Source of the DNA: Neolewinella aurantiaca
GTDB taxonomy: Bacteria; Bacteroidota; Bacteroidia; Chitinophagales; Saprospiraceae
Assembly (NCBI RefSeq): GCF_008014675.1
Contig: NZ_VOXD01000022.1
Span: 17,728 to 81,727 of the forward strand
Reading direction: 5' to 3'
DNA length: 64,000 bases
The stretch's first letter is position 1, and every line of letters starts with the position of its first letter. The position numbers and the translations under genes were made by a program. Below the pieces are notes generated by a model, which was not told where the DNA came from, did not search any database, and worked only from the letters and a program-made list of their open reading frames with translations. Shown in pieces: positions 3,768-64,000 of the stretch.

Positions 3768-4554
3768 GATGAATTATAGTTTGTGGAATTGCTTCCGGTT
3801 TTGGTTGAGGGCTTTAAGTTGTTTCCCTTTGACATCAGCAAATATGGGGGCAAGCGTAAACCAGATACGAGACACAGCAGCAAAAAAAATCTCCGCATAA
3901 AATCCGACAAAAACGAAGCTACCAACCACACAAGTGATTGAAAATCAACAACCTATTAAAAAATAACGCACCCCATCATTGCATCAAAACATTTCCCGGC
4001 ACCTGCGTTTGCGCCTCTAAAAAGTCAGCTTATCGAGCAAACAACCAGCTTTTTCTCTCTGAAATAAAATTGCGTCCCCGTAGGGCCCATTACGGTGTGG
4101 ACGATAAAGGGCCGTGTTATGAGGTATATGGTTTTCCCTGCCCTCACAGGAGAGACACGATAGCCGCCAGAATTATTACAATCGCGTATTTCGGATTGTA
4201 CACTATTGGTTGGATAAGGGTCGTGAGGTGTATAACTGAAGGCTGTAAGTGGGCGGAGTCTTTGCGGACTGGCTGGGGTAGCAAATCATTTCGGGGGGTG
4301 TACACAAAAAAACAGTATCGATCGTCTTTCTGGCTCACTTTTCATACATTGCGTGAATACTACTTCATGAAACTGTTTTCAGAAACCAAACCGATTTAAA
4401 CTTTCCTGACCTGACCGATTTCCGGGCCACTTTTTTATTTACCAGGTGCGGGAGCCGGAGTGTAGTCATCGCTACACGATAATTGTGCAACGACGCCTGA
4501 CGAATGGGGTCGTGAACAGATCGGTTAAACCGGCTCATTAACAAACCAATACAG
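3768..4554. other. Long intergenic region without a supported gene
   Basis: This lies between the divergent peptide array and the gene at 4555. A 153-codon frame at 3938-4399 has no recognisable domain, no hydrophobic pattern and a Cys/Arg-rich composition unlike its neighbours; I do not call it. The region contains one copy of the dispersed repeat (4000-4015) and a small perfect hairpin GTGTAG-N6-CTACAC at 4460-4477. Promoters for both directions must lie here, but none is clear. Confidence 0.5.
4000..4015 (+). repeat. Dispersed GCAGGTGCA repeat, copy 1 (variant)
   Basis: CACCTGCGTTTGCGCC, with GGCACC in place of TGCACC. It is preceded by ATTGCATCAAAAC, which matches the tail of the other copies. 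Intergenic. Confidence 0.6.
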
Positions 4555-6069
4555 ATGGAATTGTTACGGGAAATCTCTTCTTACGTTAATTGGGAGCAAG
4601 TTCTGGCCAATATGGATGGGACACAAACGCCTAAAAAAGCAAAAAGAATTCAACAATTTTTCCTGCGCCTGCAGGAAGCACCCGCAACCGGTAAACTGGA
4701 GATGGCACGCCTTCTTTACGGTCGCACCCGAACGGCATCTCACCCTCCTTTTCTGGCACTGCTCGATGAGCTGAACCTGGCCACACTCAAAGCTTACCTG
4801 ACTCCAAATGGTCGTTATACTTCCTCTCCTTCCCGCAAGGATATGATTCAGCGATGTGAACGCACCAACGCTCTGCTCTTCATGTCGGCAGAACGAAGCA
4901 AAGAGGCACGGACTAAATTTTTGCACCTTCTGGTAAAGCATGCCGCACAGTGCCACCACGTATCCCTGGAACTTGAATGCCTCCAGCTACTACAGGCTAT
5001 TTACGGTTACCGGGCTTACGACGAAGTAAAACTACTGGAAACGGAGGCGGAAATCCGGCGGTGCATTACGGTGAACCGCATTACCGCACGCTGTAAGATG
5101 GCCGCCCTGGACCAACGCATGGCCAGCGCTGAAGGCCTCCCCTACCCCGCCGGAATTCCCCTTGCCGAAATAGAAGAGGCTGTAAGCGTTCACAAATTCT
5201 ACGACATTCAGTATGCCGGGGGTGAAGTTCTGACTCAGATAGCAATTGACCAACAAGACTGGCCCGGCGCACTCCTACACTCCGGCCGTGCGCTGAGCTT
5301 TTTCCGGGAATACTTCCCAAAAGAGAAGCAACCATTCATACATTTCCTTTACGCCCAGGTGATGATTTACGCCGCTATGGAGGACTTCACAAAAGGATGG
5401 GCTTGCTGGAAAAAACTGTATCAGTTCTTCAGTAAGGAAAAAAGCAGAAGCCAGGTTGGTAAAGTGATCGAAATGGGAACCATCCTCTTACTTCGCTGCG
5501 GCGAAACAAAAACAACCACTGAACTGATGCAATGTATTGCGGACGCAGGAGGAGTAACCACCATTGGCAAGGGAGAGCGCGGCCGGTGGCTGACTTATCT
5601 ACGTACCCTTGCTTTCCTGAATTCCGGACAACCCGCCGTACTGGAATTGATCGCCCAGCAAGAGCGAAAACTACGGAGGGGAGGAAAAAATATCTCCCTG
5701 CTTGCCGGTGACGAACTCAACCTCGGAATAATAGAGTGTCTAGATCTGCTGAAAAGTAAATCTTACCGTAAAGCAGCTGGTGTAGTGGCCGGATTGAAGA
5801 ATAAGCTTCCCGGACGCCTTTCTTCCAGTGCTCCCGAATATCGTCTCCATCTTTTCCTCAAACTCCTGGTCGAGAGTGCCGCCGCAAACTTCCACCGGGC
5901 AGCAACGATAAGAAAGACTACGAAAACACTAAAGCGGCTAAAAGCCACCAAGCCCGGAATTGACGATAATGGAATTGATATCGAACTGATAACTTTTGAA
6001 TTACTCTGGGAAATAATGATTCCTACATTATCCGAAAAAGCCCCACGCCGCCCTTACCTTTCTGCCTGA
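4555..6069 (+). CDS. Uncharacterised ~500-aa alpha-helical protein, paralogue 1
   Basis: This encodes 504 residues with no signal peptide or membrane segment, predicted mostly helical with TPR-like Leu/Ala spacing. I know no named family. It aligns along its length with the next gene: both have an N-terminal A.LLYG.......PP...L...L block near residues 48-75 and a C-terminal stretch of similar helix pattern ending ..LF.QLL...A..NF. Paralogues in tandem, both on the opposite strand from the peptide array, suggest one locus. It could be a scaffold or regulatory repeat protein; this is inference. Confidence 0.8.
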   Translation: MELLREISSYVNWEQVLANMDGTQTPKKAKRIQQFFLRLQEAPATGKLEMARLLYGRTRTASHPPFLALLDELNLATLKAYLTPNGRYTSSPSRKDMIQRCERTNALLFMSAERSKEARTKFLHLLVKHAAQCHHVSLELECLQLLQAIYGYRAYDEVKLLETEAEIRRCITVNRITARCKMAALDQRMASAEGLPYPAGIPLAEIEEAVSVHKFYDIQYAGGEVLTQIAIDQQDWPGALLHSGRALSFFREYFPKEKQPFIHFLYAQVMIYAAMEDFTKGWACWKKLYQFFSKEKSRSQVGKVIEMGTILLLRCGETKTTTELMQCIADAGGVTTIGKGERGRWLTYLRTLAFLNSGQPAVLELIAQQERKLRRGGKNISLLAGDELNLGIIECLDLLKSKSYRKAAGVVAGLKNKLPGRLSSSAPEYRLHLFLKLLVESAAANFHRAATIRKTTKTLKRLKATKPGIDDNGIDIELITFELLWEIMIPTLSEKAPRRPYLSA

Positions 6070-6268
6070 GATCCTTTAATGAATTACTTCCTGTCGGGAA
6101 TTTATGGATTTGTGCTACGCAGTCAGTCCCCCAAAAGGCACCGCACGCTATTAGCCCGTCCAGGTCAACAGACCGCTTGTTATAGTTTTAGTTGTCTGAC
6201 ACCTTCAGCGTTGTTCTCTCTGTAATCTGGCAGGCCAATAATTCTTAGTCTCATAAACCTTACTCCCA

Positions 6269-9718: not shown

Positions 9719-9734
9719 GTAGAAAACACTCAGG

Positions 9735-11105
9735 ATGAATCTCACTTTTTCAAAGCTTACCCTGCACCTGCGCTCCGTCGCCATGCTCCTTCTTTTCGCT
9801 ATTCCTGCCCTGACGCAGGCCCAGGACGAAGACCTCTTGTTTATCGACAATACATACGTCGACAACATCAAAACTGTCCGTTTTCACCTCGATGGAGTAC
9901 TCCACAGCTACCCACTCATCGAGCTCAACGGCAGCGGAAAGCTCCGCTTATCCTTTGATGATTTCAACGATGAAGTTCGCCGCTACTCTTACAAATTCAT
10001 CCACTGCGATCAGGACTGGCAACCCTCCAGCCTCAGCCCGCTGGAGTTCAATGCCGGCAATACCATCGGTTATTTCGACGATTACGATTTCAGCATCCGG
10101 ACGCTGCGCGATTACATCCATTACGAACTCGTTTTCCCTAACCGTGACATGCAAATCAGCGCCAGCGGCAATTACCTTCTGGTAGTCTACGACGACGAAG
10201 ACGAAACCATCCCCGTAATTACCCGTCGCTTCATGGTGCAGGAAAAACTGGCAGGCGTCACCGGACGGGTTATGCGTCCTTCCATCGTAGATCAGATCCA
10301 TACGCATCAGGAAGTCGACCTCACCGTCGGGACCAAGCAAATGCAGGTCCGCAACCCGCTGCGTGAACTCCGCGCAACGGTTATTCAGAACAACCGGTGG
10401 GACAATGCCGTGACTGGCATCGTGCCCAGCCTGCTCCAAAACGACGCGGTACGTTTCGATTATCAGGGACAGGTGAGTTTCTTTGGTGGCAACGAATACC
10501 GCAATTTGGACATTCGCTCCGTCCGCGCCCCACGTACCGAAATGGTAAGCGTCACCAACGAAGAAGACGGCTACGCCATGATGATGCAAGCCGACCGCCC
10601 ACGCGACAACGGCACATACCTCGGGTACATAGATTTTAACGGCGATTACATCAACGATCGCTTCGAAGAACTGACCCTCCAGCTTACTCAGGAAAGCCAA
10701 AGCGGCGAAACATTCGACCGCTTCGATTACAACTACAGCGGCGACTATGTGCGCATGACCTTCGTCCTCGCAACCAATACCAAACTCGACCGCGACATTT
10801 ACCTCTTTGGTGGTTTTACAGAAAACCAGCTTAAACCTGAGTATAAAATGGTTTGGAACACCCAGATCAGTGCTTACGTCGGTCAGGCGGTTTTGAAACA
10901 GGGCTTTTACAACTACCACTACGTGGTGGAGCAAAATCCCCCTCCCGGCAGTACCAAAGCATCGGATCGGTTCACCTATGATTACATCGAAGGCAGTTTC
11001 GACGAAACGGAGAACGATTACCTGGCCCTGATCTACTGGCGCCCGATTGGCGGCAGGTACGACCGGCTGGTCGGTACCAGCCAAATGAACAGTAACGTGG
11101 ATTAA
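9735..11105 (+). CDS. Type IX secretion system Plug protein (DUF5103)
   Basis: This encodes 456 residues. A signal peptide spans about residues 1-29 (ends ALTQAQ). The mature start DEDLLFIDNTYVDNIKTVRF, the central KFIHCDQDW block and the alternating beta strands match the DUF5103 family, identified structurally as the periplasmic Plug that closes the SprA translocon pore of T9SS. It thus serves export of the sorting-domain proteins in this window (30561 and 44454). A copy of the dispersed repeat overlaps the signal-peptide n-region (9763-9782); a later ATG at 9783 would exclude it but would leave a signal peptide with no basic residues, so 9735 is preferred. Confidence 0.88.
   Translation: MNLTFSKLTLHLRSVAMLLLFAIPALTQAQDEDLLFIDNTYVDNIKTVRFHLDGVLHSYPLIELNGSGKLRLSFDDFNDEVRRYSYKFIHCDQDWQPSSLSPLEFNAGNTIGYFDDYDFSIRTLRDYIHYELVFPNRDMQISASGNYLLVVYDDEDETIPVITRRFMVQEKLAGVTGRVMRPSIVDQIHTHQEVDLTVGTKQMQVRNPLRELRATVIQNNRWDNAVTGIVPSLLQNDAVRFDYQGQVSFFGGNEYRNLDIRSVRAPRTEMVSVTNEEDGYAMMMQADRPRDNGTYLGYIDFNGDYINDRFEELTLQLTQESQSGETFDRFDYNYSGDYVRMTFVLATNTKLDRDIYLFGGFTENQLKPEYKMVWNTQISAYVGQAVLKQGFYNYHYVVEQNPPPGSTKASDRFTYDYIEGSFDETENDYLALIYWRPIGGRYDRLVGTSQMNSNVD
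9763..9782 (+). repeat. Dispersed repeat, copy 2, in the Plug signal peptide
   Basis: TGCACCTGCGCTCCGTCGCC. The first ten bases are exact and the remainder is diverged. In frame it encodes LHLRSVA of the n-region. Confidence 0.6.
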
Positions 11106-11743: not shown

Positions 11744-11761
11744 GGCGCGAACGCAGGTGCA
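11744..11761 (-). repeat. Dispersed repeat, copy 3, intergenic
   Basis: GGCGCGAACGCAGGTGCA, then a GGTCGGGTTAAAGGCGAC tail. It lies between the divergent NADAR and TolC genes, 88 bp upstream of NADAR. Confidence 0.85.
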
Positions 11762-15765: not shown

Positions 15766-15783
15766 GGCGCGGCCGCAGGTGCA
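15766..15783 (-). repeat. Dispersed repeat, copy 4, between TPR and DUF4292 genes
   Basis: Exact consensus GGCGCGGCCGCAGGTGCA. The tail AAAATCTGGTTTAACGAGC runs to within a few bases of the TPR stop codon. Confidence 0.92.
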
Positions 15784-15810: not shown

Positions 15811-17355
15811 TTATTGTACTTTAGTCATTTTACCCCGAAGGTTAGACGATTTGCTTCCTGCTGATTTAGCACGGGTATATGCTTTAGCCGCAGCAACTTT
15901 GTCGCCTGACTTCACGTAGGCATCACCCAGCATCTCGAGGAAAAACGAATTGGTATTCTGCGGGCTGTCGTAAGCGATCAGGGCTGTCGTATTTCCGCCG
16001 TTTGCGATCAGGAAGGCAAGGGGGCCTTCTTTTCCGCCGGGCAGTTGGGCAAAATCGATTTTAGCCGTTGCGTCGCCGGCCTCCAGGCCGGCCAGGGCCA
16101 GGGCCAGTTGCTCCATCGCAGCCTTGGCCTCCGGTTGAGACGAGGTCATAAACCGGGCCTGCTCCAGCAGAGAGTTCGCTTCGGAGAAATCAAACCTGAA
16201 AGCTTCGCCGAGGGCGTAATGAACGTATACACCGGGCCGGTTAGGGAAAACATCGAGCGCTTCTTCTGCGTACTTGCGTAATTCCACCGTCTGATTACTG
16301 AGGTACAGCGTTGCAAGCAGTTGCTCCCAAACCGGGTATACTGTGTCGTCCAGCTCAATGGTTGATTTGTACGCAGCGGCGGCCTCCTCCATTTGTCCGG
16401 AGTGAAAAAACACATCGCCCTGCAAAGCAGCGGCTTTAGCTTCGTCGGGGTGAACCCGCCGGAGCTCAGCGGCCAGCAACGTTGCTCTTCTACCCTTCTC
16501 TGCATCCTGCGTCTGCGCCAATTCGTTAACTAAAGGCAACAGCTTACCCACCTTCAGGTCGATGTCTACGTCTGCCCGGCCCAAAAGCGCCATCAGTTCA
16601 GCATCGTTACCCGAAGACTTCGCCGGCGCCACATCCTGCAGTGCCAGTTGCGCCCGTACGTCGGCGGGTTCCAATTGTAAAATTTCTTCGTAGGCTTTGC
16701 GCGCCTTCGCTTTATCATCCTGACTGGTGTAGTATCCTGCCAGCATATGACGAAAACGCAGGTCTTCCGGCTTGGATTCCACGAGCGCAAGGAGTTCTTT
16801 CTCGGCCCGCTTTTCATCTCCCTGCCCCAGGTAAAGGGAGTGCTTCAGCCGCGCCAATTCAACGTTAATACCAATTTTATCTTCCAGCTCGTTGTAAACA
16901 GAGATAGCGCCCTTTACGTCCTGAGCACGAACCAAAAATGCAGCCCGCTCGAGGTAAAATTCTGCTTCTTCCGGATTCTTCCGGATCAACTCTCCGTACA
17001 GATCGGCTCCCTCTTTATGACGACCACTTGCCTGGTACAACTCCGCTAAAAACGATGCGTACACTTCGTCAGGGCGCTTGCTGTAGGCTTTTCTTATATG
17101 ATCGATAGCGTCCTCGGTATTTCCGGCAGCATACTGCAACCGACCAAGTTCAAAGTGGGCAGCGTCCATGTCAGGAGCCGCCTCCACGAGTTCTTCGAAC
17201 ATGCCGATGGCTTTCTCAGTCTTACCCAGAAGCGCTTCGCGCTTCGCCTCGATAAAACTGGTCTGTCGTTTGATGTCGCTTTCGGTAGGTGCTTCGGCCT
17301 GAGCGAAAAGCGGGACAGCTAAGAAATACAGGAAGAGTAAAAGTGCAGTACGCAT
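15811..17355 (-). CDS. Secreted TPR-repeat protein
   Basis: This encodes 514 residues. The signal peptide spans about 1-19 (...AVPLFAQA). Tandem 34-residue TPR units follow from about residue 40 to 260 (AHFELGRLQYAAGNTEDAID, ...AKARKAYEEILQLEPADVRA) and again at 300-420, then a final TPR-like AYVKSGDKVAAAKAYTRAKS near 480. It is a periplasmic or outer-membrane-facing scaffold. It is first in a likely operon with the DUF4292 lipoprotein, a conserved pairing in Bacteroidota. Partners are not known to me. Confidence 0.88.
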   Translation of the reverse strand: MRTALLLFLYFLAVPLFAQAEAPTESDIKRQTSFIEAKREALLGKTEKAIGMFEELVEAAPDMDAAHFELGRLQYAAGNTEDAIDHIRKAYSKRPDEVYASFLAELYQASGRHKEGADLYGELIRKNPEEAEFYLERAAFLVRAQDVKGAISVYNELEDKIGINVELARLKHSLYLGQGDEKRAEKELLALVESKPEDLRFRHMLAGYYTSQDDKAKARKAYEEILQLEPADVRAQLALQDVAPAKSSGNDAELMALLGRADVDIDLKVGKLLPLVNELAQTQDAEKGRRATLLAAELRRVHPDEAKAAALQGDVFFHSGQMEEAAAAYKSTIELDDTVYPVWEQLLATLYLSNQTVELRKYAEEALDVFPNRPGVYVHYALGEAFRFDFSEANSLLEQARFMTSSQPEAKAAMEQLALALAGLEAGDATAKIDFAQLPGGKEGPLAFLIANGGNTTALIAYDSPQNTNSFFLEMLGDAYVKSGDKVAAAKAYTRAKSAGSKSSNLRGKMTKVQ

Positions 17356-21021: not shown

Positions 21022-21039
21022 GGCGCGATCGCAGGTGCA
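21022..21039 (-). repeat. Dispersed repeat, copy 5, 3' flank of 21048 gene
   Basis: GGCGCGATCGCAGGTGCA, 8 bp beyond the stop codon of the minus-strand gene. The two central bases differ from consensus. The usual GGTTTAA tail is not recognisable because coding sequence adjoins. Confidence 0.85.
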
Positions 21040-21933: not shown

Positions 21934-24429
21934 ATGAAATACGTCCATCTCGCCACCTCAGGTATCGTTCTGCTGCTCTGGCTGATCTTCGGCTCCTACT
22001 CCGGCCCGGCAGGTCTGCCGGTTCCTGCTCTCGGAAACTTTTTTCACCCCCAGAAAGGCTTCTGGCATAACAGCCGCCCAAAACTTACTGACCGCACGAA
22101 GAAAATTGGTTTGAACCTCGATCATCCGCTGGCAAAGGGGAGCGTTCATTTTGATGACCGGGGCGTTCCCCATGTTTTCGCGCCGGACCTGGAGAGTGCA
22201 GCCTTCATGCAGGGTTACGTTAGTGCCGCCGACCGGCTCTGGCAAATGGACATCAGCACCCGCGCCACCGAAGGCCGCCTGAGCGAAGTGCTCGGAACCA
22301 GAACCCTGGCCCGCGATTCAATGCAGATTCGTCGGGGTTTCCGGCAGGCAGCGAAGAACGAAACCGATACCATGCGGGTCAACTTCCCCGAAGACATGCA
22401 GGTGCTCGAAGCTTACGCCGCAGGCGTAAATGCATGGATCGACCAGTTGAAACCCCGGCAGTACCCCGTCGAGTATAAAATCCTGGGCCATAAGCCGCTC
22501 CGATGGTCTCCCTACCGTACCGCCCTGCTGATGAAAGGGATGTCTCAATCCCTCAGCAGCCGCTATTCCGATGCCGGAGCCGACAAAACCAAAGCAGACC
22601 TGGGCGAGGACGTCTTCAATGCTTTATTCCCCAGCCGTTTCCCCGCAGACAGCCCCATCGTTCCGGACGACGGCAGGTATAAAAAAGGGGCGGAGACGCA
22701 GGTGCAAAATCAGGTTTCAACCGCGCTTCTCTCAACCCAGTATGCACCTGCGACCGCGCACCCAAAAGACTATGCCATCGGGGCCAGTGGATATGATGCC
22801 GTGAGCCACGAACCTTATACCCTCATGCCTGCCCACCCCGATAACGGATCCAACAACTGGGCCGTGGATGCGGAACATTCCAACACCCGCCACCCGATCC
22901 TGGCCTCAGACCCTCACCTGGCCCTATCGCTGCCCAGCATCTGGTACGAAATTCAAATCAGCATCCCCGGTGTGAACGCACGGGGGGTAAGCCTGCCCGG
23001 CGCACCGGGCATCATCATGGGCTTCAACGACCACATCGCCTACGGTGAAACGAACGTAGGGCACGACGTTACCGACTGGTTCCGGATCGAGTGGACCGAC
23101 GAAAAACGCACCCATTATCTGCTGGACGGAGTAAAAACACCCGCCCGGATAGTGACCGATACGCTTCACCTCAAGGGAAGCAAGCCCATCATCATTCAAA
23201 CTCCCTGGACGGTGTTTGGCCCCGTCCCGTACTACGATGGGCCCTACGCAGACCACGCAATGCGGTACCTGGGCCACGATGCCCCGGGTAAAGACGTGCG
23301 CCCGCACACCATGGCGGGCACCTTTCTCGGGCTGATGCAAGCCGAAAATTACGATGACTACGTGCATGCACTGAAGGGTTACATCGACCCCGCTCAGAAC
23401 TTCATCTTCGCGGAAAAGAACGGCGATATCGCCATCCGCCCCAACGGAGGTTTCCCGATCCGGGCACCCGGTCAGACCGGGCGCTTCACCACCCCTGGCA
23501 ACACCATTACCAACGCATGGCGCGGCTACGTACCCTTCTCCGAAAGACCAGTGCATAAAAACCCCGCCCGGGGGTTTGTCTCATCTGCAAACCAAACGAC
23601 TACGGGGCCAAACTACCCCTACCCTTACACCGGCGGATTCGATGAATACCGTGGCCGGCTCATCAACCGCTACCTGAGCCGGGAAACCACCATGACACAG
23701 CAGACCATGAAGGAGCTTCAGCTCAGCAGCCATTCTTTGCTCGCCGAAGAACTTACCCCTCTGCTTATCGCCAGAATCAACCGCCAGGCCCTTACCGACG
23801 AGGGCCGCGAGCTGCTGCGTCTCATCTCTGAATGGGACTACCGCTGCGAAGGAGAAAGCCGCGCCGCGACCTTTTTCGAAATGTGGCGAACCAAGGTTTA
23901 TGCCCTCACCTTCGATGAAATGCCGAGTGATTCCGGTTACCTCCAACCGGAGCTATGGAAATGGAACGAATTACTCAAAAAAGATGCCCGCAATGCGGTT
24001 TTCGACATTCAGGCTACCCCAAACTTCAAAGAAACGGCTGCCACACTGACGCAGCGTGCCTTCGATGAAATCGAGGAAGAGCTCGCCGGAGAGCTGCCGG
24101 TTCCCTGGGCAGAATACCGGAACACCCACGTGAAGCACCTCGGATCCATACCAGGGTTTGGCTCAGAACTCATCCGTACCGGGGGGGCACGCTTCGCGCC
24201 CCGGGCACTGAGCAGTGGGCATGGTGCAAGCTGGAGGATGGTCGTGGAACTGGGTACACAACCCCGTGCATGGGGTACCCTGCCCGGCGGGGCATCGGGA
24301 GATCCCGGCAGCGAGTTTTACGATAATTGCCTTAGCGACTGGGCAAACGGCAGGTATCACGAACTCGTTCGGTGGAAAGACGACGAAGAGGCGAAACGAA
24401 AAGCTACAGGAAGCTGGACTTTTCGATAA
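21934..24429 (+). CDS. Penicillin-acylase-family Ntn hydrolase (penicillin/acyl-homoserine lactone acylase type)
   Basis: This encodes 831 residues. A membrane-spanning or signal segment (4-22) leads to the alpha part (GVPHVFAPDLESAAFMQGYV, DRLWQMDISTRATEGRLSE), a linker, and the beta part beginning with Ser306 in DNGSNNWAV. That Ser becomes the N-terminal nucleophile after self-cleavage. Other family residues include SDPHLALSLPSIWYEIQI and PGIIMGFNDHIAYGETN. The enzyme cleaves amide bonds of acylated substrates in the periplasm; substrate unknown (beta-lactams, acyl-homoserine lactones or lipopeptides are all possible). Residues about 252-276 of the linker are encoded by two inverted copies of the dispersed repeat. 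Confidence 0.92.
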   Translation: MKYVHLATSGIVLLLWLIFGSYSGPAGLPVPALGNFFHPQKGFWHNSRPKLTDRTKKIGLNLDHPLAKGSVHFDDRGVPHVFAPDLESAAFMQGYVSAADRLWQMDISTRATEGRLSEVLGTRTLARDSMQIRRGFRQAAKNETDTMRVNFPEDMQVLEAYAAGVNAWIDQLKPRQYPVEYKILGHKPLRWSPYRTALLMKGMSQSLSSRYSDAGADKTKADLGEDVFNALFPSRFPADSPIVPDDGRYKKGAETQVQNQVSTALLSTQYAPATAHPKDYAIGASGYDAVSHEPYTLMPAHPDNGSNNWAVDAEHSNTRHPILASDPHLALSLPSIWYEIQISIPGVNARGVSLPGAPGIIMGFNDHIAYGETNVGHDVTDWFRIEWTDEKRTHYLLDGVKTPARIVTDTLHLKGSKPIIIQTPWTVFGPVPYYDGPYADHAMRYLGHDAPGKDVRPHTMAGTFLGLMQAENYDDYVHALKGYIDPAQNFIFAEKNGDIAIRPNGGFPIRAPGQTGRFTTPGNTITNAWRGYVPFSERPVHKNPARGFVSSANQTTTGPNYPYPYTGGFDEYRGRLINRYLSRETTMTQQTMKELQLSSHSLLAEELTPLLIARINRQALTDEGRELLRLISEWDYRCEGESRAATFFEMWRTKVYALTFDEMPSDSGYLQPELWKWNELLKKDARNAVFDIQATPNFKETAATLTQRAFDEIEEELAGELPVPWAEYRNTHVKHLGSIPGFGSELIRTGGARFAPRALSSGHGASWRMVVELGTQPRAWGTLPGGASGDPGSEFYDNCLSDWANGRYHELVRWKDDEEAKRKATGSWTFR
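22689..22706 (-). repeat. Dispersed repeat, copy 6, inside the acylase gene
   Basis: GGCGGAGACGCAGGTGCA with tail AAAATCAGGTTTCAACCGCG. It is antisense to the gene and encodes GAETQVQNQ in the alpha-beta linker. It forms an inverted pair with copy 7. Confidence 0.85.
22743..22760 (+). repeat. Dispersed repeat, copy 7, inside the acylase gene
   Basis: TGCACCTGCGACCGCGCA, sense orientation, encoding APATAHP. It is 36 bp from inverted copy 6, upstream of the catalytic Ser codon. Confidence 0.85.
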
Positions 24430-25604: not shown

Positions 25605-25622
25605 GGCGCGGCCGCGGGTGCA
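25605..25622 (-). repeat. Dispersed repeat, copy 8, between histidine kinase and gcvT
   Basis: GGCGCGGCCGCGGGTGCA, one mismatch to consensus. The tail AAGAAAAGGTTTAATGCGCAA closely parallels copy 4. It lies 38 bp after the kinase stop. Confidence 0.88.
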
Positions 25623-29556: not shown

Positions 29557-30303
29557 CTATTTCAGGAATTCTTTCATGTTTGCCATATCCTTGCGGATAC
29601 CATCCGTAATCACACTAAGTGTGGTTTCAAAATCAGCCTGGGTTTTGGCCAATTTGTCTACGCTTCCTTTTATCGTTTCCCGCAGTTTAGTTTGTTCTGC
29701 CCGGGATTTTTCGATTTGAGACTGCAACTCTTTAATTTTTGCCTCCTGCCGCTTTATATCAGCATCAATTTGTTGGAGTTTAGCCTCCTTATTATTGACC
29801 TGAGCCGCACGCTGCGCCTTAAGCGCATTGGAGAACTTCTTGTGCTCGTTCTCTAAAACAGAAAGGTAGTGCTGCGCAGATTCCTGCAGATGCCCCGGGG
29901 TTACCCCCATACTCTGCGCCGTGGCAAATGCTGTCTGAAATCGAATACTATCGGTAAAATCCATCTTCTTCAGGTTTTGAAGCGACTTCTTGTATTCCAG
30001 ATAATCGAATCCAGGCAGATTGTTAGCCTCCATTGCCTCCATCAGAACTTTCACCGAACGATCATTAACGCTACCCGACACTGTGCGCTGAGCAGGCGGG
30101 GGCGCAGGTGCAACAGGTGCCCCCTTCGGGGTAGCAGAGCCCTTGGCTCCCTCTACAGGCTTTGATTTATCGGGCAATGTTTTTGCCACTTTCGGGCCGC
30201 CCTCTTCTTCGACGATGAAGTAAGACTTAAGATTTTTCCACATGGATATATAATCGTTATAGTTGGTCGGAAGGTCAGCACCCTCAACCAGGTGGTATTC
30301 CAT
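29557..30303 (-). CDS. Coiled-coil protein of the PspA-like/SBP-OmpA set
   Basis: This encodes 248 residues, soluble. A short N-terminal domain (1-35) is followed by a Pro/Ala/Lys-rich linker (36-75), a helical domain (about 78-140, VKVLMEAMEANNLPGFDYLE) and a coiled coil (about 145-248, KEAKLQQIDADIKRQEAKIK). The helical part looks like a compact alpha domain but I cannot name it. Part of the linker (APAPPPA, 65-71) is encoded by the dispersed repeat. First gene of the three-gene set. Confidence 0.8.
   Translation of the reverse strand: MEYHLVEGADLPTNYNDYISMWKNLKSYFIVEEEGGPKVAKTLPDKSKPVEGAKGSATPKGAPVAPAPPPAQRTVSGSVNDRSVKVLMEAMEANNLPGFDYLEYKKSLQNLKKMDFTDSIRFQTAFATAQSMGVTPGHLQESAQHYLSVLENEHKKFSNALKAQRAAQVNNKEAKLQQIDADIKRQEAKIKELQSQIEKSRAEQTKLRETIKGSVDKLAKTQADFETTLSVITDGIRKDMANMKEFLK
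30095..30112 (-). repeat. Dispersed repeat, copy 9, inside the 29557 gene
   Basis: GGCGGGGGCGCAGGTGCA. Sense to the gene, encoding APAPPPA in the flexible linker. Confidence 0.82.
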
Positions 30304-36085: not shown

Positions 36086-36103
36086 TGCACCTGCGCTCCC
36101 GCC
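36086..36103 (+). repeat. Dispersed repeat, copy 10, intergenic
   Basis: TGCACCTGCGCTCCCGCC. The first ten bases are exact. Preceded by TTTGCTCATCC...ATTTT, matching the tail. Confidence 0.75.
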
Positions 36104-39040: not shown

Positions 39041-39815
39041 AATATGACAGTATTTGATTAAGCCCGTGCAGGACCAGATTGGGGTAAATAACATTAGGAA
39101 TGCTAAGCAAGCCAGCCAACAGCGCCGCATCTCCTCCAGTCAGGATCAACTCCAGATCGGGGAAAGTTTCGCGTAGTCTGAGGAAAAGACCTTCTATCTC
39201 GTAAGCTGCACCGAACTGTCCTCCGTGAAGGAGTGCCTTTTCGGTAGAACGGCCCACTTCGCCGGAGAGGCTTCCCGGCTCAACGAGAGGCAGTCTCGCG
39301 GTGAAATCATGCATCGATCTCAGCCGCATCCGAACTCCCGGGCTTATGTTTCCTCCGTAGTACACGGCATCGCCATCAATCAGATCGAGGGTAATACAGG
39401 TACCGGCGTCGACGATAAGCCGGGCGGGCAGATGTTCAGCAGGCGCGGCCGCAGGTGCAGAGGAAGTTGGAAGCGAAAGGCTTCCTGCCACCGCTGCGAT
39501 ACGGTCCTGACCCAACGTTGCCGGCGTCTCGTATAACGAGGTGAACGGCAGCGGCAGCTCAGGTTTCAGGGCCAGTGTAAACCGACCCGCCTGATTCCAT
39601 TTATCCATCCACTTAGCAGGTGGCACGTTTGCCACCGTGGAATAGATGATGTTTTTAACCCCAAGGTTGGTTACCATCCGGTCCGCTACTTCCCATTCCT
39701 GGTCCGTAAAGCGGGTAACCGGCCCGGTCAGAAACCCATCGAGGAACACTCCGGCCTTGACCGAAGTATTTCCAATATCAATGGCTAGCTGATGATCCGA
39801 TGTGGTGCCCATCAT
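39021..39815 (-). CDS. coaX: Type III pantothenate kinase
   Basis: This encodes 264 residues and phosphorylates pantothenate, the first step of coenzyme A synthesis. ASKHA-fold motifs: AIDIGNTSVKAGVF (11-24), the DRIAAVAG block (104-111), VDAGTCITLDLID (135-147) and a C-terminal LTGGDAALLAG. Between AAVAGSLSLPTS and ARLIVDAGTC sits an extra Ala/Pro stretch APAAAPA (120-126), encoded exactly by a perfect dispersed-repeat copy, where family members usually pass directly into the strand. Overlaps the next gene by 20 bp. Confidence 0.95.
   Translation of the reverse strand: MMGTTSDHQLAIDIGNTSVKAGVFLDGFLTGPVTRFTDQEWEVADRMVTNLGVKNIIYSTVANVPPAKWMDKWNQAGRFTLALKPELPLPFTSLYETPATLGQDRIAAVAGSLSLPTSSAPAAAPAEHLPARLIVDAGTCITLDLIDGDAVYYGGNISPGVRMRLRSMHDFTARLPLVEPGSLSGEVGRSTEKALLHGGQFGAAYEIEGLFLRLRETFPDLELILTGGDAALLAGLLSIPNVIYPNLVLHGLNQILSYYVQHQS
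39442..39459 (-). repeat. Dispersed repeat, copy 11, in frame in coaX
   Basis: Perfect consensus GGCGCGGCCGCAGGTGCA. Sense to coaX; codes APAAAPA in a surface loop. Confidence 0.93.
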
Positions 39816-44240: not shown

Positions 44241-44258
44241 GGCGGGGTCGCAGGTGCA
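44241..44258 (-). repeat. Dispersed repeat, copy 12, upstream of the ABC-F gene
   Basis: GGCGGGGTCGCAGGTGCA. It faces copy 13 in inverted orientation, as in the acylase gene. Confidence 0.85.
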
Positions 44259-44301: not shown

Positions 44302-44337
44302 GGCTTTAAACCGGTTATTGCATCCCGCGTTTGCGCC
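44302..44337 (+). repeat. Dispersed repeat, copy 13 (diverged core, good tail)
   Basis: GGCTTTAAACCGG, then TTATTGCATCCCGCGTTTGC and GCC. The tail matches strongly. The core has one inserted base and TGCATCCC for TGCACCT. Confidence 0.6.
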
Positions 44338-50835: not shown

Positions 50836-50853
50836 TGCACCTGCGTCAGCGCC
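50836..50853 (+). repeat. Dispersed repeat, copy 14, 3' flank of the peroxidase gene
   Basis: TGCACCTGCGTCAGCGCC, 25 bp beyond the stop of the 50879 gene, antisense to it. Confidence 0.85.
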
Positions 50854-53901: not shown

Positions 53902-53919
53902 TGCGAGGACGCAGGTGCA
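53902..53919 (-). repeat. Dispersed repeat, copy 15, upstream of the MbnP-like gene
   Basis: TGCGAGGACGCAGGTGCA, with a tail containing AAACAGGTTGAAGGAGC. It ends the 5' leader 18 bp before the ATG. Confidence 0.8.
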
Positions 53920-56425: not shown

Positions 56426-59326
56426 ATGCGCCTTACCGCCTTTCTCACCCTGCTCTTTACCCTGCTTTTCACCTGCGGCCGCGCCCAAGATGCTTCCTTC
56501 CAACAGAAGGCTGATTTTATTATCGACGCGAAACTCGATGATGAACGGCACGAACTGCACGCCCACCTGAAACTCACGTACACCAATAATTCTCCCGATT
56601 CGATTTCCGTCATTCCGTTTCATTTCTGGCCAAAAGCATACAGCTCCGACGAGACAGAATTTGCTCAACAACAACTCCGTAACGGAAAAACCGACTTCCA
56701 CTTTTCTGAGCAACGCCAGCGCGGAACACTCGACAGCCTGAAATTTGTGGTAAACGGTACAGCCGCCGAACATAAGTTCCGCCGAGACGCTCCCGACGTT
56801 GCCGATGTTTTGCTGCCCGGAGCTATTCCCCCCGGTGGTAGTGCCGTAATCGAAACCCCTTTCCGGGTGAAAATCCCCGCCAGTTTTTCCCGCCTCGGTC
56901 ACGTAGGCCAATCATACCAGATTACCCAGTGGTACCCGAAGCCTGCCGTATATGACAAAAACGGCTGGCACCCTATGCCCTACCTCGATCAGGGAGAATT
57001 TTACAGTGAATTCGGCAACTTCACCCTTCACCTCACGCTTCCCGAAAATTACGTCGTTGGTGCAACCGGGGTGCTGCAAAACCCCGACGAACGCAACTGG
57101 CTCCTGAAAAAAGCGGAAGCAGACCGGGTGCACCTGAACATTAGCAAAGCGGCAGGAGAACTGAGCGATGGCTTTGTCCGGGAAACTTTCCCGACTTCTT
57201 CGGAACGAACAAAAACACTTACCTGGCAAGCCGAGCAGGTACACGATTTCGCCTGGTTTGCGGATAAGCGCTTCCGGGTTTTGCACGACACGCTACAACT
57301 GGCAGAAAGAGAGGATGCCATTCACGTCTGGTCCATGTTCACGGCCACCGAGGCCGGCTTATGGGTAAAATCCACGGATTACATTAAGCGTGCCACCCGC
57401 TTTTACTCCGAACAGGTAGGCACGTACCCCTATCCGCAGGTGACCGGCGTACAGTCGGCGCTCAGCGCCGGCGGCGGCATGGAATATCCGATGATTACCG
57501 TTATCGGGCGTAGCGGGAGTGCTGCGGGGCTCGACCGGGTGCTGGCGCACGAAATTGGACACAACTGGTTTTACGGCATCCTCGCCAGCAACGAACGCGC
57601 CCACCCCTGGATGGACGAAGGGCTGAACTCTTTTTACGAGCACCGGTACATGGCGAAGTTCTGGCCCGACCGCCCTGCTGGCATCGAGTTGGCCAACCTG
57701 CAAATTGACTACGACCGACTGGGGTACCACTACCTCGCCCGCCAGGGAAAAGACCAGGCTCCGGACACCCGGTCGGACAGTCTGAGTCAGTACAACTACT
57801 GGCTGCAGGCCTACAGCAAACCCGCTCTTGCGCTTAAGGAGTTGGAGGCCCACGCAGGCACCGAAGCGTTCGACCGCGCGATGCGGGCTTATTATGCAGA
57901 CTGGAAGTTCCGTCATCCCCAGCCGGACGATTTTTTCAGCACCATCAACGAAAGCCTCGGGCTGGAAACCGAACCCTGGTTCCGCGAAGCCTTCACTACT
58001 ACTAAAACCTCGAACTGGAACCGGGGCGCAGCACCCGGCTTCGTTGCCTACCATAAAGGAGACCGGATGGTTCCACAACCCGAAGGAGAAAAAAGCAATG
58101 CCCTCGATCTTTACCCCAAAGGAGGAATGTCTCAGGGAAGAAAGTTCTCGTTGGGCGTTCTCACCAATCAGGAGAACCCGAACAAGCGTCAGATTTTTGC
58201 GTCCCCTATCGCGGCATTCAACGAGCACGACGGGCCGATGATCGGGGCAACCCTGCACAACCGGACGCTGGAACCACGACGCCTGGAATGGATGCTCGCG
58301 CCGCTGTACGGCTTTGAGAGTAAAACGCTGAATGGCTTTGCCGGTATCCGCCTGCGCGTGCCGCGCAGCAGTGGCGGAATTGAACAGAGCACCCTGAGTG
58401 CTGGAGTACAACGCTTCAGCGATTTCACATTACGCCGGACCGATACACCTTACTCATACTTCCGGTACGCCCTGAAGGCGGAAACGACCTTTAGGCATGC
58501 CCCGATTACTGAAACCGAAAGCAAGCTGAATTTCCGGATGGTGCTACTGCAAAAGGACCGTCCTGAGTTTTCAGCCACCGGCGAGATTGCAGGGAAAGAC
58601 GCCGAAGGAGAGTATTTCTGGCGGCTCGGCTACAGCCGCGCTAAAACGAGGGAGATCACCCCCATTGCCTTTAGCCTCAACCTGGAAGCGAAGGTTGTTG
58701 ATGAGGCAACGCCCTTCCGGGCGGGTCACCTTAAGCTGGAGGGCATCGTAAACGGCGGCTACCAATACGAGCAAGAGCGGTTTCTCCGCTACCGGCTCTT
58801 CGGGGGTGTCTTCCTGGCCAATGAACTGCGCGAAAGCGCAGTACGCAGTAACTCCGGCTTTTCGTTGGTCGACAATGCCTTCAGCGACTACCGTTACGAT
58901 GACCTTTACCTGGGCCGTAACCTTGATGGCATTTATGGCCAGCAACTCGAACAGCGGCAGGGAGGATTTCGGGCGCCCATCAGTTCTGCCTTCGCTTTCG
59001 GCACAAGCAATAGTTACATGACCGCCATAAATATCGATGCCGACCTTCCTGCTTTCCCCGCATACCTCCCGTTCGGTTTGTTCCTCGATGCCGGTTACTA
59101 CGGTTTTAAAAGCCTCAGTGCTGATCCCCTCAGCGGCGAATTCAGCTGGGTTGGCGGAGTTTCGCTCAGCGCGATGAAGGGACGGATAGGAGTATTTGCC
59201 CCTTTGATTGCAGACCCCGACACTAAAATGCTGCTGGAACAGCAGGGAGACCTGATCAACAGGCTTACGTTCAGGCTTAGTCTTTCCGGCTGGATGCCGT
59301 GGCGCTGGGTTGACGACCTGTTCTGA
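56426..59326 (+). CDS. M1 family zinc metallopeptidase with long C-terminal beta-rich region
   Basis: This encodes 966 residues. Signal peptide about 1-20 (TLLFTCGRAQ). The catalytic part has the M1 substrate-anchor segment as GGGMEYP (about 349-355) and the zinc site His375, Glu376, His379 (HEIGHNWF) with Glu398 (MDEGLNSFYEHRY). From about 560 to the end (400 residues) the sequence has alternating hydrophobic/polar strands and ends LTFRLSLSGWMPWRWVDDLF, as in an outer-membrane barrel. This predicts an outer-membrane-anchored peptidase. The signal-peptide end overlaps a repeat copy (56468-56485). Confidence 0.9.
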   Translation: MRLTAFLTLLFTLLFTCGRAQDASFQQKADFIIDAKLDDERHELHAHLKLTYTNNSPDSISVIPFHFWPKAYSSDETEFAQQQLRNGKTDFHFSEQRQRGTLDSLKFVVNGTAAEHKFRRDAPDVADVLLPGAIPPGGSAVIETPFRVKIPASFSRLGHVGQSYQITQWYPKPAVYDKNGWHPMPYLDQGEFYSEFGNFTLHLTLPENYVVGATGVLQNPDERNWLLKKAEADRVHLNISKAAGELSDGFVRETFPTSSERTKTLTWQAEQVHDFAWFADKRFRVLHDTLQLAEREDAIHVWSMFTATEAGLWVKSTDYIKRATRFYSEQVGTYPYPQVTGVQSALSAGGGMEYPMITVIGRSGSAAGLDRVLAHEIGHNWFYGILASNERAHPWMDEGLNSFYEHRYMAKFWPDRPAGIELANLQIDYDRLGYHYLARQGKDQAPDTRSDSLSQYNYWLQAYSKPALALKELEAHAGTEAFDRAMRAYYADWKFRHPQPDDFFSTINESLGLETEPWFREAFTTTKTSNWNRGAAPGFVAYHKGDRMVPQPEGEKSNALDLYPKGGMSQGRKFSLGVLTNQENPNKRQIFASPIAAFNEHDGPMIGATLHNRTLEPRRLEWMLAPLYGFESKTLNGFAGIRLRVPRSSGGIEQSTLSAGVQRFSDFTLRRTDTPYSYFRYALKAETTFRHAPITETESKLNFRMVLLQKDRPEFSATGEIAGKDAEGEYFWRLGYSRAKTREITPIAFSLNLEAKVVDEATPFRAGHLKLEGIVNGGYQYEQERFLRYRLFGGVFLANELRESAVRSNSGFSLVDNAFSDYRYDDLYLGRNLDGIYGQQLEQRQGGFRAPISSAFAFGTSNSYMTAINIDADLPAFPAYLPFGLFLDAGYYGFKSLSADPLSGEFSWVGGVSLSAMKGRIGVFAPLIADPDTKMLLEQQGDLINRLTFRLSLSGWMPWRWVDDLF
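56468..56485 (+). repeat. Dispersed repeat, copy 16, in the M1 peptidase signal peptide
   Basis: TTCACCTGCGGCCGCGCC, with TTCA in place of TGCA, otherwise perfect. In frame it encodes FTCGRA at the signal-peptide cleavage region. Confidence 0.72.
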
Positions 59327-62568: not shown

Positions 62569-62570
62569 CA

Positions 62571-62588
62571 GGCGGGGCCGCAGGTGCA
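62571..62588 (-). repeat. Dispersed repeat, copy 17, directly after the oxidoreductase stop
   Basis: GGCGGGGCCGCAGGTGCA, starting 3 bp after the TAG. The tail AACGAAGTTTTTC..AAGAGCAAAGC partly matches. Confidence 0.9.
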
Positions 62589-62622
62589 AACGAAGTTTTT
62601 CTGAAGAGCAAAGCGCAAGCCC

Positions 62623-62865
62623 CTAGCCTGTTACTCCTTCGTAAAGTGCGTAAGCCGCCAGGCTTACCTTCAGCAACAAGCTCAGAAACTCCAGCCAAGG
62701 CTTCTTGTCGGCCAGTTCCGATGTTCGTTCAGTGGGGGTGAGCGGATAGGTCACAAAAACGATGATAATGTCGCGAAGGCGATCACGCTCCTCGGCACCA
62801 GGACCGGCATATTGGTCGTTTTCCTTTAGCTTCGGTTTGTTTTTAATTTCGGGAGGTGTAGACAT
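62623..62865 (-). CDS. Small protein with C-terminal transmembrane helix, unknown
   Basis: This encodes 80 residues. A polar, Lys/Pro-rich N-terminus (MSTPPEIKNKPKLKENDQYA) is followed by a short hydrophobic stretch (RDIIIVFVTYPL, 31-42) and a C-terminal helix (LEFLSLLLKVSLAAYALYEG, 59-78). No family known to me. It is convergent with the oxidoreductase gene and divergent from the hydrolase gene. Coding is supported by composition and clean ends only. Confidence 0.6.
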   Translation of the reverse strand: MSTPPEIKNKPKLKENDQYAGPGAEERDRLRDIIIVFVTYPLTPTERTSELADKKPWLEFLSLLLKVSLAAYALYEGVTG

Positions 62866-63081
62866 GATTTGGGATGAGTTTGAACACTTGTAAGATAATC
62901 ACTGTCCGCTCCTGACAACATCAGTGATGTTATAGTTGCCCCGGCCACCCCAGGTGACTTTTGCGGCCGCTTTTATCACCTCGCCAAAATTTCACCTTTG
63001 ATGACCGAAGCAACTATATTACAAATTTAAAGTATTTGTGATAAAAAACAAACATTTTGTTTCATTTTTAAACCAATTACT

Positions 63082-64000
63082 TTGAAAAGCACTAAGATCT
63101 ACTTTCCCAACGGGCGGGGGCAGCAACTCGCTGCAAGGTTAGAGCTTCCGGTAAACCGTCATCCGCATGCTTTTGCGTTATTCGCGCACTGCTTTACGTG
63201 TTCGAGTTCGTTGGCAGCAGTCAGGTACATAAGCCGGGAACTGAACCTACAGGGCTATGGCGTACTGCGTTTCGACTTCACCGGACTGGGCAACAGCGAA
63301 GGCGACTTTGTAGACACCAACTTCACGACTAACATCTCAGACCTCGTTGCCGCAGCAGAATGGCTCGGCGAGCATTACGATGCTCCGGCTCTTCTCGTTG
63401 GCCACAGCCTGGGTGGTGCAGCGGTACTCTGCGCCGCCAGGATGATCGACTCCGTAAAAGCGGTGGCCACCATCGGTGCCCCCTTTGCACCGGATCATGT
63501 TTCGGCCCACTTCGCCGCAGACATCGACCAGATCGAGACCGAAGGCGAGGCTACCGTAAGCATCGGCGGGCGCCCCTTCAGGATTGCGAAGCAATTCCTT
63601 GACGATCTCGACCAGCAACCTATCCTCGAACACATTAAAGACCTCGGTGCGGCGCTGCTCATTCTCCATTCTCCGCAAGACACAACGGTTAACATCGATG
63701 AGGCGGCTAAACTGTACACAGCTGCCTTTCATCCCAAAAGCTTTGTTTCGCTCGACGGAGCGGACCACCTCCTGACCCGGGCTGAAGATGCTCATTATAC
63801 CGGCCAGGTTATTGCTGGCTGGTCATCGAGATATATCACTGCACCTGCGGCCGCGCCCCTCAGATCGGACAAAGAAGTCGCAGTAAGGCTCGGAGATGAA
63901 GGTTTCACAACGGAGGTCATGGTCCGCCAGCACCACCTTGTCGCCGATGAGCCCGAAAGCATTGGCGGCAACGATTACGGCCCGGGGCCGTACGAGCTCG
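63082..64000 (+). CDS. Alpha/beta hydrolase-OsmC fusion (partial, cut by window end)
   Basis: The first 306 codons are visible. A TTG start at 63082 is chosen because it aligns the family N-terminus (KSTKIYFPNGRGQQLAARLE); no in-frame ATG precedes it. The hydrolase part has LFAHCFTCSSSLAAVRYISR (oxyanion side), FDFTGLGNSEGDF, the nucleophile elbow VGHSLGGAA, Asp in SPQDTTVN and His in DGADHLL. The OsmC-like peroxidase domain begins at about 262 (KEVAVRLGDEGFTTEVMVRQ). Fusions of this type are known and thought to act in peroxide or thiol stress. The linker APAAAP (254-259) is repeat copy 18. Confidence 0.88.
   Translation, partial: MKSTKIYFPNGRGQQLAARLELPVNRHPHAFALFAHCFTCSSSLAAVRYISRELNLQGYGVLRFDFTGLGNSEGDFVDTNFTTNISDLVAAAEWLGEHYDAPALLVGHSLGGAAVLCAARMIDSVKAVATIGAPFAPDHVSAHFAADIDQIETEGEATVSIGGRPFRIAKQFLDDLDQQPILEHIKDLGAALLILHSPQDTTVNIDEAAKLYTAAFHPKSFVSLDGADHLLTRAEDAHYTGQVIAGWSSRYITAPAAAPLRSDKEVAVRLGDEGFTTEVMVRQHHLVADEPESIGGNDYGPGPYEL
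63840..63857 (+). repeat. Dispersed repeat, copy 18, in the hydrolase-OsmC linker
   Basis: Perfect consensus TGCACCTGCGGCCGCGCC in sense orientation. It encodes APAAAP exactly at the domain junction. Confidence 0.92.

Follow-up and report, generated by a model that had tools for sequence, protein, structure and literature searches.

The window, the whole stretch of DNA analysed, comprises 64,000 nt of Neolewinella aurantiaca (GCF_008014675.1, contig NZ_VOXD01000022.1, positions 17,728–81,727 of the forward strand), and carries a short repeat dispersed through intergenic gaps and genes, including the linker of a penicillin-amidase family gene (Table 1).

Copies of the repeat in the window

The first-pass annotation had reported 14 exact occurrences of the 10-mer TGCACCTGCG, all of which were found at the positions it gave; the expected number was 0.19, and the maximum among 100 dinucleotide shuffles was 2. 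Searching with the 18-mer at up to three mismatches revealed 15 window sites (0.06 expected), and a position matrix derived from 464 kb of the N. aurantiaca genome (hereafter G000), window included, revealed 20, two of which were absent from the earlier list. Three near copies listed there (4000, 25605 and 56468) proved real, whereas the fourth, placed at 44302, is off, its core lying at 44320–44337 with an extra base (GCGGGATGC). The tail described earlier is partly borne out: downstream of the core we observed a purine bias, G at +11 and +15, T at +17/+18 and a weak purine-rich stretch reaching about +27, but the GAGCAA-like end is present (by eye) only in some copies and at variable spacing. 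An AT-rich patch lies upstream, at −16 to −13. Read by eye, the core at 56468–56485 would encode a lipobox-like LFTCGRA.

Table 1 Motif cores and the amidase gene in the window (window coordinates).
Feature	Position	Strand	Evidence
Core, variant ending GCAGGTGCC	3998..4015	-	matrix score 33.0
Core near 5' end of T9SS plug-domain gene	9763..9780	-	exact 10-mer, matrix
Core, intergenic	11744..11761	+	exact 10-mer, matrix
Core, perfect 18-mer, near gene boundary	15766..15783	+	18-mer search, matrix
Core, GCAGGATGC variant, newly listed	16502..16519	-	matrix score 22.9
Core, intergenic	21022..21039	+	exact 10-mer, matrix
Penicillin-amidase family gene (PF01804), indel-rich linker with shared site	21934..24429	+	
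Core in penicillin-amidase linker	22689..22706	+	exact 10-mer, matrix
Core, second in penicillin-amidase linker	22743..22760	-	matrix, linker comparison
Core, GCGGGTGCA variant, intergenic	25605..25622	+	18-mer search, matrix
Core within gene, retained in G003 and G008	30095..30112	+	ortholog alignment, matrix
Core, intergenic	36086..36103	-	exact 10-mer, matrix
Weak core, newly listed	36682..36699	-	matrix score 15.3
Core, perfect 18-mer, within called ORF	39442..39459	+	18-mer search, matrix
Core, left half of inverted pair	44241..44258	+	matrix
Weak core (GCGGGATGC), right half of inverted pair	44320..44337	-	matrix score 14.2
Core, intergenic	50836..50853	-	exact 10-mer, matrix
Core at 5' end of called ORF	53902..53919	+	exact 10-mer, matrix
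Core, one mismatch, inside ORF 5' end	56468..56485	-	18-mer search, matrix
Core directly past ORF end	62571..62588	+	exact 10-mer, matrix
Core, perfect 18-mer, intergenic	63840..63857	-	18-mer search, matrix

Abundance, placement and dialects

A genome-wide count near random expectation had been set beforehand as possible evidence against the repeat; the count came out far above control, with 1232 copies of GCAGGTGCA versus 25 for the reversed control, and 897 copies of GGCGSNNNCGCAGGTGCA versus 0. The matrix gave 185 to 166 sites per 464 kb at cut-offs between 8 and 16, against 12 to 2 for the reversed control, which, extrapolated from 464 kb of the 5.996-Mb genome, corresponds to ~2,300 sites per genome. 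The strands were balanced among 176 sites in 464 kb (91+/85−), across 300 kb (62/58) and in every 50-kb bin sampled. Intergenic sites numbered 74/176 versus 22 expected, and the other 102 lay inside called ORFs on either strand, the calls being greedy longest ORFs and thus crude; 68 of these 102 fell in the first halves of genes, the second halves showing no excess. No reading-frame orientation bias was seen in this small sample, with 48 sites oriented with the gene and 54 against it. Furthermore, spacing was more even than a genic/intergenic-matched null in three stretches (CV 0.73 vs 1.03, 0.63 vs 0.97 and 0.66 vs 0.99; p < 0.001, 0.0013 and 0.019, respectively), the comparison covering 464 kb of 5.996 Mb. 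These results establish the motif's abundance and, in 464 kb, its even, unoriented spacing.

Species dialects are likewise established: many genomes of the genus carry hundreds to more than 1000 copies of a short word that differs by species, and CAAAGTAGCA, with 1344 copies in G011, occurs 1–12 times in each of 20 congeners. An inserted-base form, GCAGGATGCA, stood in motif context in 9/9 occurrences. Matrices for genomes other than G000 are rough (9–38 sites vs 2–13 in reversed controls; worst in G003, 8 of 15, and G019, 13 of 35); two runs, those of G016 and G007, were discarded because they had shifted to codon periodicity, and G001, G004 and G021 yielded too few seeds. The dialects of G001, G004, G007, G013 and G016 are read mainly from k-mers, that of G004 weakly, and G009 and G017 were sampled at single loci plus pattern counts only.

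At a few loci, different dialects occupy the same homologous position. The amidase linker matched a motif in 17 of the 20 genomes examined (no match in G009, G015 and G016), on the same strand as the 22743–22760 copy, with CAAAGTAGCA in G011 and GCGCAGGTAAAG in G001, whereas the G004 copy reads CGCGGGTGCC, not that genome's own CGCGGGAGCA. The union pattern applied to the linker also gave loose matches (AAAGTAGC in G001, CAGCGC in G017 and G019), which we excluded as dialect evidence, and G018 was counted via the core with one mismatch. Similarly, columns 632–634 of ComEC hold a site in 11/21 genes, all on the same strand (ten genomes plus G011), and 10/21 genes have none at columns 632/634; the G011 site is in that genome's own word, though G011 is an off-template species. 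A third homologous position with differing dialects was found between G014 and N. agarilytica. Most dialects follow the ComEC tree; G012 carries the standard word, yet groups there with G004, G009 and G017, and dialect and tree therefore agree only partly. Copies conserved in position between genera within ordinary genes, the other observation named in advance as contrary, were encountered only in part: some motif positions are common to species of the genus, with diverged flanks and several in the species' own dialect.

A candidate uptake signal and its alternatives

We consider it likely that the repeat supplies the DNA-side half of a self-recognition code used in natural transformation. The motif, a core GGCGcGGnCGCAGGTGCA plus the weak downstream tail, would be preferred by a cell-surface DNA receptor; motif-bearing DNA would enter more often and recombine at homologous positions, and mutations towards the motif would consequently pile up where proteins or regulation tolerate them, namely in intergenic gaps, early gene parts and protein linkers. 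Such a process would amount to a biased-uptake molecular drive, in which a shift in receptor preference would lead to sites being rewritten into a new dialect. DNA uptake, already a candidate in the first-pass annotation, fits most of the distributional tests, though the type IV pilus ATPase seems to be missing and the reading-frame orientation bias reported for known uptake sequences was not seen. The literature searched contained no uptake experiments for the genus and described no established uptake sequence in Bacteroidota.

The motif could instead be bound inside the cell by a nucleoid, replication or segregation protein that requires unoriented sites at regular intervals, with dialects that track coevolution of the protein, an explanation we regard as improbable. 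A coevolving DNA-binding protein would yield much the same pattern: spacing is regular, which Karlin et al. (cited in PMC1939737) took as a sign of a role in replication, repair or compaction, strands are balanced, most dialects match the ComEC tree, and close pairs in G000 are mostly inverted (17/20 '+-', 3 '-+' and 0 same-strand). However, ~2,300 sites per genome, many of them in genes and linkers, look costly for a structural site, and the switch of G011 to a quite different word would require many sites to be rewritten, which biased uptake with recombination accounts for directly. The oriented form of the segregation motif suggested earlier is unsupported, since the strands balance; it is the unoriented nucleoid site that carries this alternative.

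The first-pass annotation also suggested a mobile short interspersed element. One of the REP/BIME, MITE or similar type, copied for instance by a RAYT transposase, would explain why copies are numerous and why 12 of the 17 '+-' close pairs are spaced 73–95 or 177–196 bp; the ortholog comparison makes it very unlikely. Among 57 spanned site–relative alignments (standard-dialect genomes only, some comparisons counted both ways), none showed a core-length gap, the longest gap in a relative being 7 bases within the core and 9 across the unit, with a mean flank identity of 58%. The core was kept in 28 and not in 29, of which 14 were ungapped after 3 gapped rows had been removed from that class on recount; by the measure of at least 15/18 bases kept, 28/57 core pairs compare with 228/741 random 18-mers. 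In favour of the element, cores were gapped more often than random 18-mers (20/57 vs 62/741). A first ortholog table of 14 pairs had the core gapped in 8, including 9- and 11-base gaps in G001 and G004 (67% identity), two genomes that the 57-pair set omits. Alignments were broken in a further 100 site–relative pairs, and where lengths differed by at least 14 bases, the motif carrier was the longer sequence in 48 pairs and the shorter in 40, no clear surplus. One broken pair does have what an element might leave, a 75-base, in-frame surplus in G014 that holds an inverted second copy and adjoins a copy common to G014 and N. agarilytica. In contrast, the G002 copy at L071:9778 is absent in 8 relatives, ungapped in 6/8, and differing dialects at homologous positions are not transposition. 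At a number of sites, then, the motif arises or is lost by substitution in existing sequence. Five relatives (G008, G003, G002, G010 and G006) hold a form at the place of the 15766–15783 site by local alignment, one base longer in G003 and G006, and the G018 copy sits elsewhere within the same gap.

A Chi-like recombination hotspot or FtsK-loading (KOPS-like) motif would also consist of short, over-represented, species-variable words, but Chi and KOPS act with orientation along replication, an 18-bp core plus tail is long for either, and the strand balance over 300 kb and in all 50-kb bins renders this explanation highly unlikely. A transcription signal, terminator or promoter, is just as hard to credit: it would account for the intergenic excess, and inverted pairs could fold (e.g. 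−58.0 kcal mol−1 at C1 115220, a value without shuffle control), but only 1/20 close pairs in G000 lies between convergent genes, 102 of the 176 sites are inside called ORFs, and no Rfam family matched in the window at gathering scores. Least credible of all is a methyltransferase-linked word comparable to HIP1 of cyanobacteria, which shares the high iteration of a short word and would suit the palindrome GCGGCCGC in the core, but HIP1 is itself a palindrome linked to methyltransferases (PMC4390886), whereas GCAGGTGCA and the G011 word are non-palindromic and palindrome positions within the core vary.

Candidate readers and known uptake systems

For the preferred reading, an uptake signal, we infer a surface DNA receptor as the reader, one that passes DNA to ComEA/ComEC/DprA, with uptake bias as the driving force. 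ComEC was found in 21/21 genomes of the genus, DprA and HHH_3 in 20/21 each, and the ComEA repeat model scored above cut-off in G000; ComEC and DprA were each present in 10/14 control genomes, and therefore do not discriminate motif-rich genomes. The T2SSE/PilB/PilT ATPase profile (PF00437), from which alone type IV pilus absence was judged, gave no match beyond ~84 of 370 positions in 21 genomes, with partial matches above cut-off in 11/21. We set aside a type IV pilus reader on these partial matches; a ComP-type minor pilin would therefore lack a pilus, and a type IV minor pilin is an improbable receptor.

DUF5689 was also rejected as a general reader: only G011 carries it among the 21 genomes, so it is not the reader in the other 20. 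The domain occurs in 48/61 genomes drawn from the family and in G021, G022, G065 and G099 of other genera. No comparable motif was seen in samples of G021, G022 and G065 (100, 40 and 40 kb), whereas G000 and G011, sampled in parallel at 40 kb each, did show one. Two receptor candidates in G000, C61 and C13, were discarded as a DUF5686 protein and a TonB-dependent receptor beside a symporter. We lean towards the view that a pilus-less Bacteroidota genus has its own self-recognition code, with a surface receptor, split dialects (that of CAAAGTAGCA being almost wholly different) and in-place rewriting as the receptor changed; a bolder version would have DUF5689 lost from most of the genus and kept by G011 alone, with a new receptor taking over.

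Uptake sequences in the literature searched belong to Neisseriaceae and Pasteurellaceae, and their receptor is a pilin, either known (ComP) or predicted. The Neisseriaceae DUS resembles the Neolewinella motif in being a short, strong-consensus word of about a thousand or more copies with clade-specific dialects, one of which, wadDUS, has an inserted base (PMC3630211) comparable to GCAGGATGCA. Unlike the DUS, the motif is of unrelated sequence, has a longer core with a weak tail, belongs to the phylum Bacteroidota, has an uptake role that is predicted, and occurs in genomes whose type IV pilus ATPase matches are only partial. The Pasteurellaceae USS similarly combines a core with weaker flanking segments, arises by substitution, not insertion (PMC1626085), and is evenly spaced without orientation bias along the chromosome (PMC1939737). 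USS are biased to gene ends, and known uptake sequences favour one orientation relative to the reading frame (PMC2346458), whereas in Neolewinella the bias is towards first halves only and the orientation bias was not seen. The Neolewinella motif is again of unrelated sequence, its reader is probably not pilin-based, and a single genus holds dialects as far apart as CAAAGTAGCA and GCAGGTGCA.

If the uptake reading is true, the system would have arisen separately from DUS and USS. As a third kind, from a different phylum and seemingly lacking pili, it would show that self-labelled DNA evolves repeatedly, and it would bring to light a new class of surface DNA receptor with sequence specificity. 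Having so many dialects in one genus would provide natural before/after pairs for distinguishing mate-choice adaptation from a by-product of receptor bias, and the homologous ComEC and amidase sites would let rewriting be traced base by base. Because the genome collection includes named type strains, the uptake reading can be tested directly.

Transformation in Riemerella, also of the Bacteroidota, uses ComEC, DprA, ComF, RecA and an HHH protein (PMC8459023), and R. columbina prefers its own DNA (PMC7965970). The words given by a k-mer search in Riemerella differ from the Neolewinella motif in being AT-rich, such as AAAAATAAAA (PMC7965970). Unlike in Riemerella, DUF5689 is absent from 20 genomes of Neolewinella's genus; as in Riemerella, judging by domain names only, the G011 DUF5689 protein adjoins a CarboxypepD_reg/plug-like protein, identified by matches below curated cut-offs.

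Abundance, shape and distribution of the motif

All 14 exact 10-mers claimed by the first-pass annotation were found where it had placed them (dinucleotide shuffles expect 0.19), and the window holds 15 sites of the 18-mer at ≤3 mismatches, against 0.06 expected. The genome-wide count, set by that annotation as a refuting check, was far above control: across the entire 5,995,659-base assembly, the counts for GCAGGTGCA are 629 forward and 603 reverse (15 + 10 for the reversed control, the motif word read reversed), and those for GGCGSNNNCGCAGGTGCA are 454 and 443 on the two strands (control 0 and 0). The 111 exact copies in 464 kb define a conserved span of approximately −16 to +27, running from an AT-rich patch through GGCGcGGnC and GCAGGTGCA to purines, with G at +11/+15 and T at +17/+18; the top 9-mers in this sample are CGCAGGTGC and GCAGGTGCA. 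All nine occurrences of GCAGGATGCA, a form longer by one base, are in motif context.

Scanning 464 kb with the motif matrix, which was trained on G000, revealed 185 sites (12 in the reversed control) at a cut-off of 8 and 166 (control 2) at a cut-off of 16; because the counts barely fall between these cut-offs, few sites are of intermediate score and the class is sharp. At a cut-off of 11 we observed 176 sites, one per 2.6 kb, divided 91/85 between the strands, a balance that holds for each 50-kb bin. Intergenic sites (between called ORFs) account for 74 of the 176, with 22 expected. Among the 102 ORF sites, 68 are in the first half of the gene, and 48 lie along the gene direction and 54 opposed; the reading-frame orientation bias reported for known uptake sequences was thus not seen in the 464 kb. 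Spacing was more even than the genic/intergenic-matched null in three of three stretches, and neighbour pairs less than 250 bp apart (n = 20) comprised 17 core-to-core convergent, 3 divergent and 0 same-strand pairs.

Competence machinery and the uptake reading

We investigated 21 genomes of the genus (G000–G020). ComEC was present in 21/21, and DprA and HHH_3 each in 20/21, both absences falling in the 55%-complete G010; the G000 HHH protein passes the NCBI ComEA repeat model. Matches over cut-off to the T2SSE/PilB/PilT ATPase family were found in 11/21 genomes, covering at most ~84/370 positions, and since these matches are only partial, a type IV pilus is unlikely in the genus. PMC8459023 describes transformation in Riemerella (Bacteroidota) as using ComEC, DprA, ComF, RecA and an HHH protein, as well as DUF1343 and DUF5689 proteins and the CarboxypepD_reg protein neighbouring the latter. 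Within the genus, DUF5689 occurs in G011 only (1/21), as a three-domain protein adjoining a CarboxypepD_reg/plug-like protein (matches below cut-off); this pair resembles, at the domain level, the one essential for Riemerella transformation, and for its plug-like member the other 20 genomes yielded nothing beyond short, partial matches. A wholly different motif word, likewise confined to G011 within the genus, coincides with DUF5689 there, a single case that is worth testing. Of 61 genomes sampled from the family, 48 have DUF5689, and DNA samples of three other genera with DUF5689 contained no comparable motif. In G000, a 1326-aa CarboxypepD_reg protein adjoins ComEC; it matches a T9SS sorting domain weakly, at 22.8 bits (below cut-off), and is a possible uptake-related candidate.

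Open-access PMC searches, as far as their texts extend, returned no paper that describes the motif or an established Bacteroidota uptake sequence; parts of PMC7965970 report that Riemerella columbina prefers its own DNA, with AT-rich k-mers as putative uptake words. In most tests made, the motif behaves like an uptake sequence, and we regard it as a putative one. The uptake explanation offered by the first-pass annotation therefore stands in part: most tests fit, but one machinery feature of the known systems is probably lacking and the reported orientation bias was not seen. Given these two departures, the motif is better described as a putative variant of the known uptake sequences than as an established one. 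The strongest competing explanation is an unoriented chromosome-structure site whose reader would be an intracellular protein.

Insertion or substitution at orthologous loci

We compared 57 site-relative pairs from 25 sites, using standard-dialect genomes only (those with the G000 form of the motif) and alignments spanning the site. The core was kept at ≥15/18 bases in 28 pairs (23 ungapped, 5 gapped) and not kept in 29 (14 ungapped, 15 gapped); random 18-mers from the same alignments kept ≥15 bases in 228/741. The longest gap in a relative was 7 bases within the core and 9 over the 44-base unit, so no gap deletes a whole core; the clean insertion implied by the mobile-element reading in the first-pass annotation failed to appear, with no core-length gap among the 57 spanned pairs. 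Mean identity was 58% for site flanks and 74% for cores, equal to random 18-mers, indicating that cores persist amid changed surroundings. Counting against substitution, gaps were more frequent at sites (20/57) than at random 18-mers (62/741), an excess that indel-rich linkers could cause.

As alignments would be disrupted by any long insertion, the broken ones were also analyzed (100 site-relative pairs): the motif carrier was ≥14 bases longer in 48, ≥14 shorter in 40 and within 14 in 12. The clean case among them is G014, with 75 additional bases (a multiple of three) containing an inverted second copy. This extra adjoins a motif copy common to G014 and N. agarilytica, which reads GGCGCTGCC... 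in G014 (its own dialect, or species form) and GGCGCGGCC... in N. agarilytica. These alignments show origin or loss by substitution for a good number of sites; some sites may derive from insertion or duplication. By a like test, reported in passages of PMC1626085, USS were not insertions.

Genus range and species dialects

A scan of genome contigs revealed at least 105 stretches carrying the motif; the 80 stretches listed are mostly from Neolewinella persica, N. agarilytica, N. lacunae, Lewinella MAGs and a Bacteroidia MAG, and include six unrelated genomes with a single match each; the record of the window itself may not be among them. Outside the genus (39 genomes), the top GCAGGTGCA count was 177, in G021 (control 57), and a few genomes with low counts still exceeded the reversed control by a high ratio, e.g. 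145 vs 9 in G038. Across the 21 genomes, the 18-mer count ranges from 993 (G005) down to 2 (G011) and 1 (G001), and genomes poor in the standard 18-mer use other words. That of G011, CAAAGTAGCA, occurs 23 times in 100 kb (0.19 expected) and 1344 times genome-wide, vs 1–12 in each of the 20 other genomes. The words of G001, G007 and G014 are GGCGGCGGnGCGCAGGTAA, CGCCGGAGCGCAGGA and GGCGCTGCCGCAGGTGC, G013 and G016 share CGCGGGTGCC, G019 has a CGCGGGTGC form, and G004 the weakly supported GCGCGGGAGCAA. The ComEC tree, which groups G001+G007, G013+G016+G020, G014+G019 and G000+G003+G008, is mostly in line with the dialects, but G012 has the standard word and groups with G004, G009 and G017. G011 is on a very long branch, its placement unsure.

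At a few loci, homologous positions carry different words. In the penicillin-amidase gene of the window, an indel-rich linker joins the conserved IVPD and NGSNNW blocks; on the minus strand of the linker's last 75 codons before NGSNNW, 17 of 20 genomes (without G010) have a motif match, G018 being counted with one mismatch, and of the remaining three, G009 and G016 have degenerate look-alikes only and G015 none. The linker copies of G011 (TTTTGGGCTGGCAAAGTAGCAGTG), G001 (GGGCGGCGGAGCGCAGGTAAAG), G014 (GGGCGCTGCCGCAGGTGCAG) and G019 (GGCGCGGCCGCGGGTGCAAAG) are each close to the genome's own dialect; that of G004, CGCGGGTGCC, is not its own word. In the ComEC alignment, the template word sits at column 634 in ten genomes; the G011 counterpart, on the same strand, is AAAGTAGC at column 632. 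This site is absent from 10/21 genomes. A different site, at column 144, is common to six other genomes, and one site in the ComEA-like protein to 8/20. If the function were purely local, the word should stay unchanged. One genome-wide reader per species, shifting its preference, would lead to words at its sites being rewritten, as a few loci suggest.

Other repeats were observed in the window and elsewhere (see table), along with local tandem arrays in G007 (L096–L100; CTACGCGTAG palindrome, mostly 107-base spacing) and G004 (L091–L095; 18-base CGTCCAACGG unit).

Coordinates of genes and repeats
Feature	Sequence	Coordinates	Remarks
Penicillin-amidase gene	Window	21934..24429 (+)	PF01804
49-base unit ×13	Window	46897-49858	Spacing mostly 222-228 bases; within the ORF below
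1877-aa ORF	Window	44454-50087	
Near-identical duplication	Window	3-688 vs 2478-3162	~2.47 kb apart; 100% and 97% (two 300-base blocks)
DUF5689 and CarboxypepD_reg/plug-like pair	G011, L299	5673-10598	
CarboxypepD_reg protein beside ComEC	G000, L025	14212-18189	
Dispersed modular repeat, core AGGGCCGAGC	G099, contig C1 (L347, L346)	3000001-3040000	Different Saprospiraceae genus; AGACCTGCGAGC often after core; variable hairpin-like neighbours; 12 copies/40 kb, both strands
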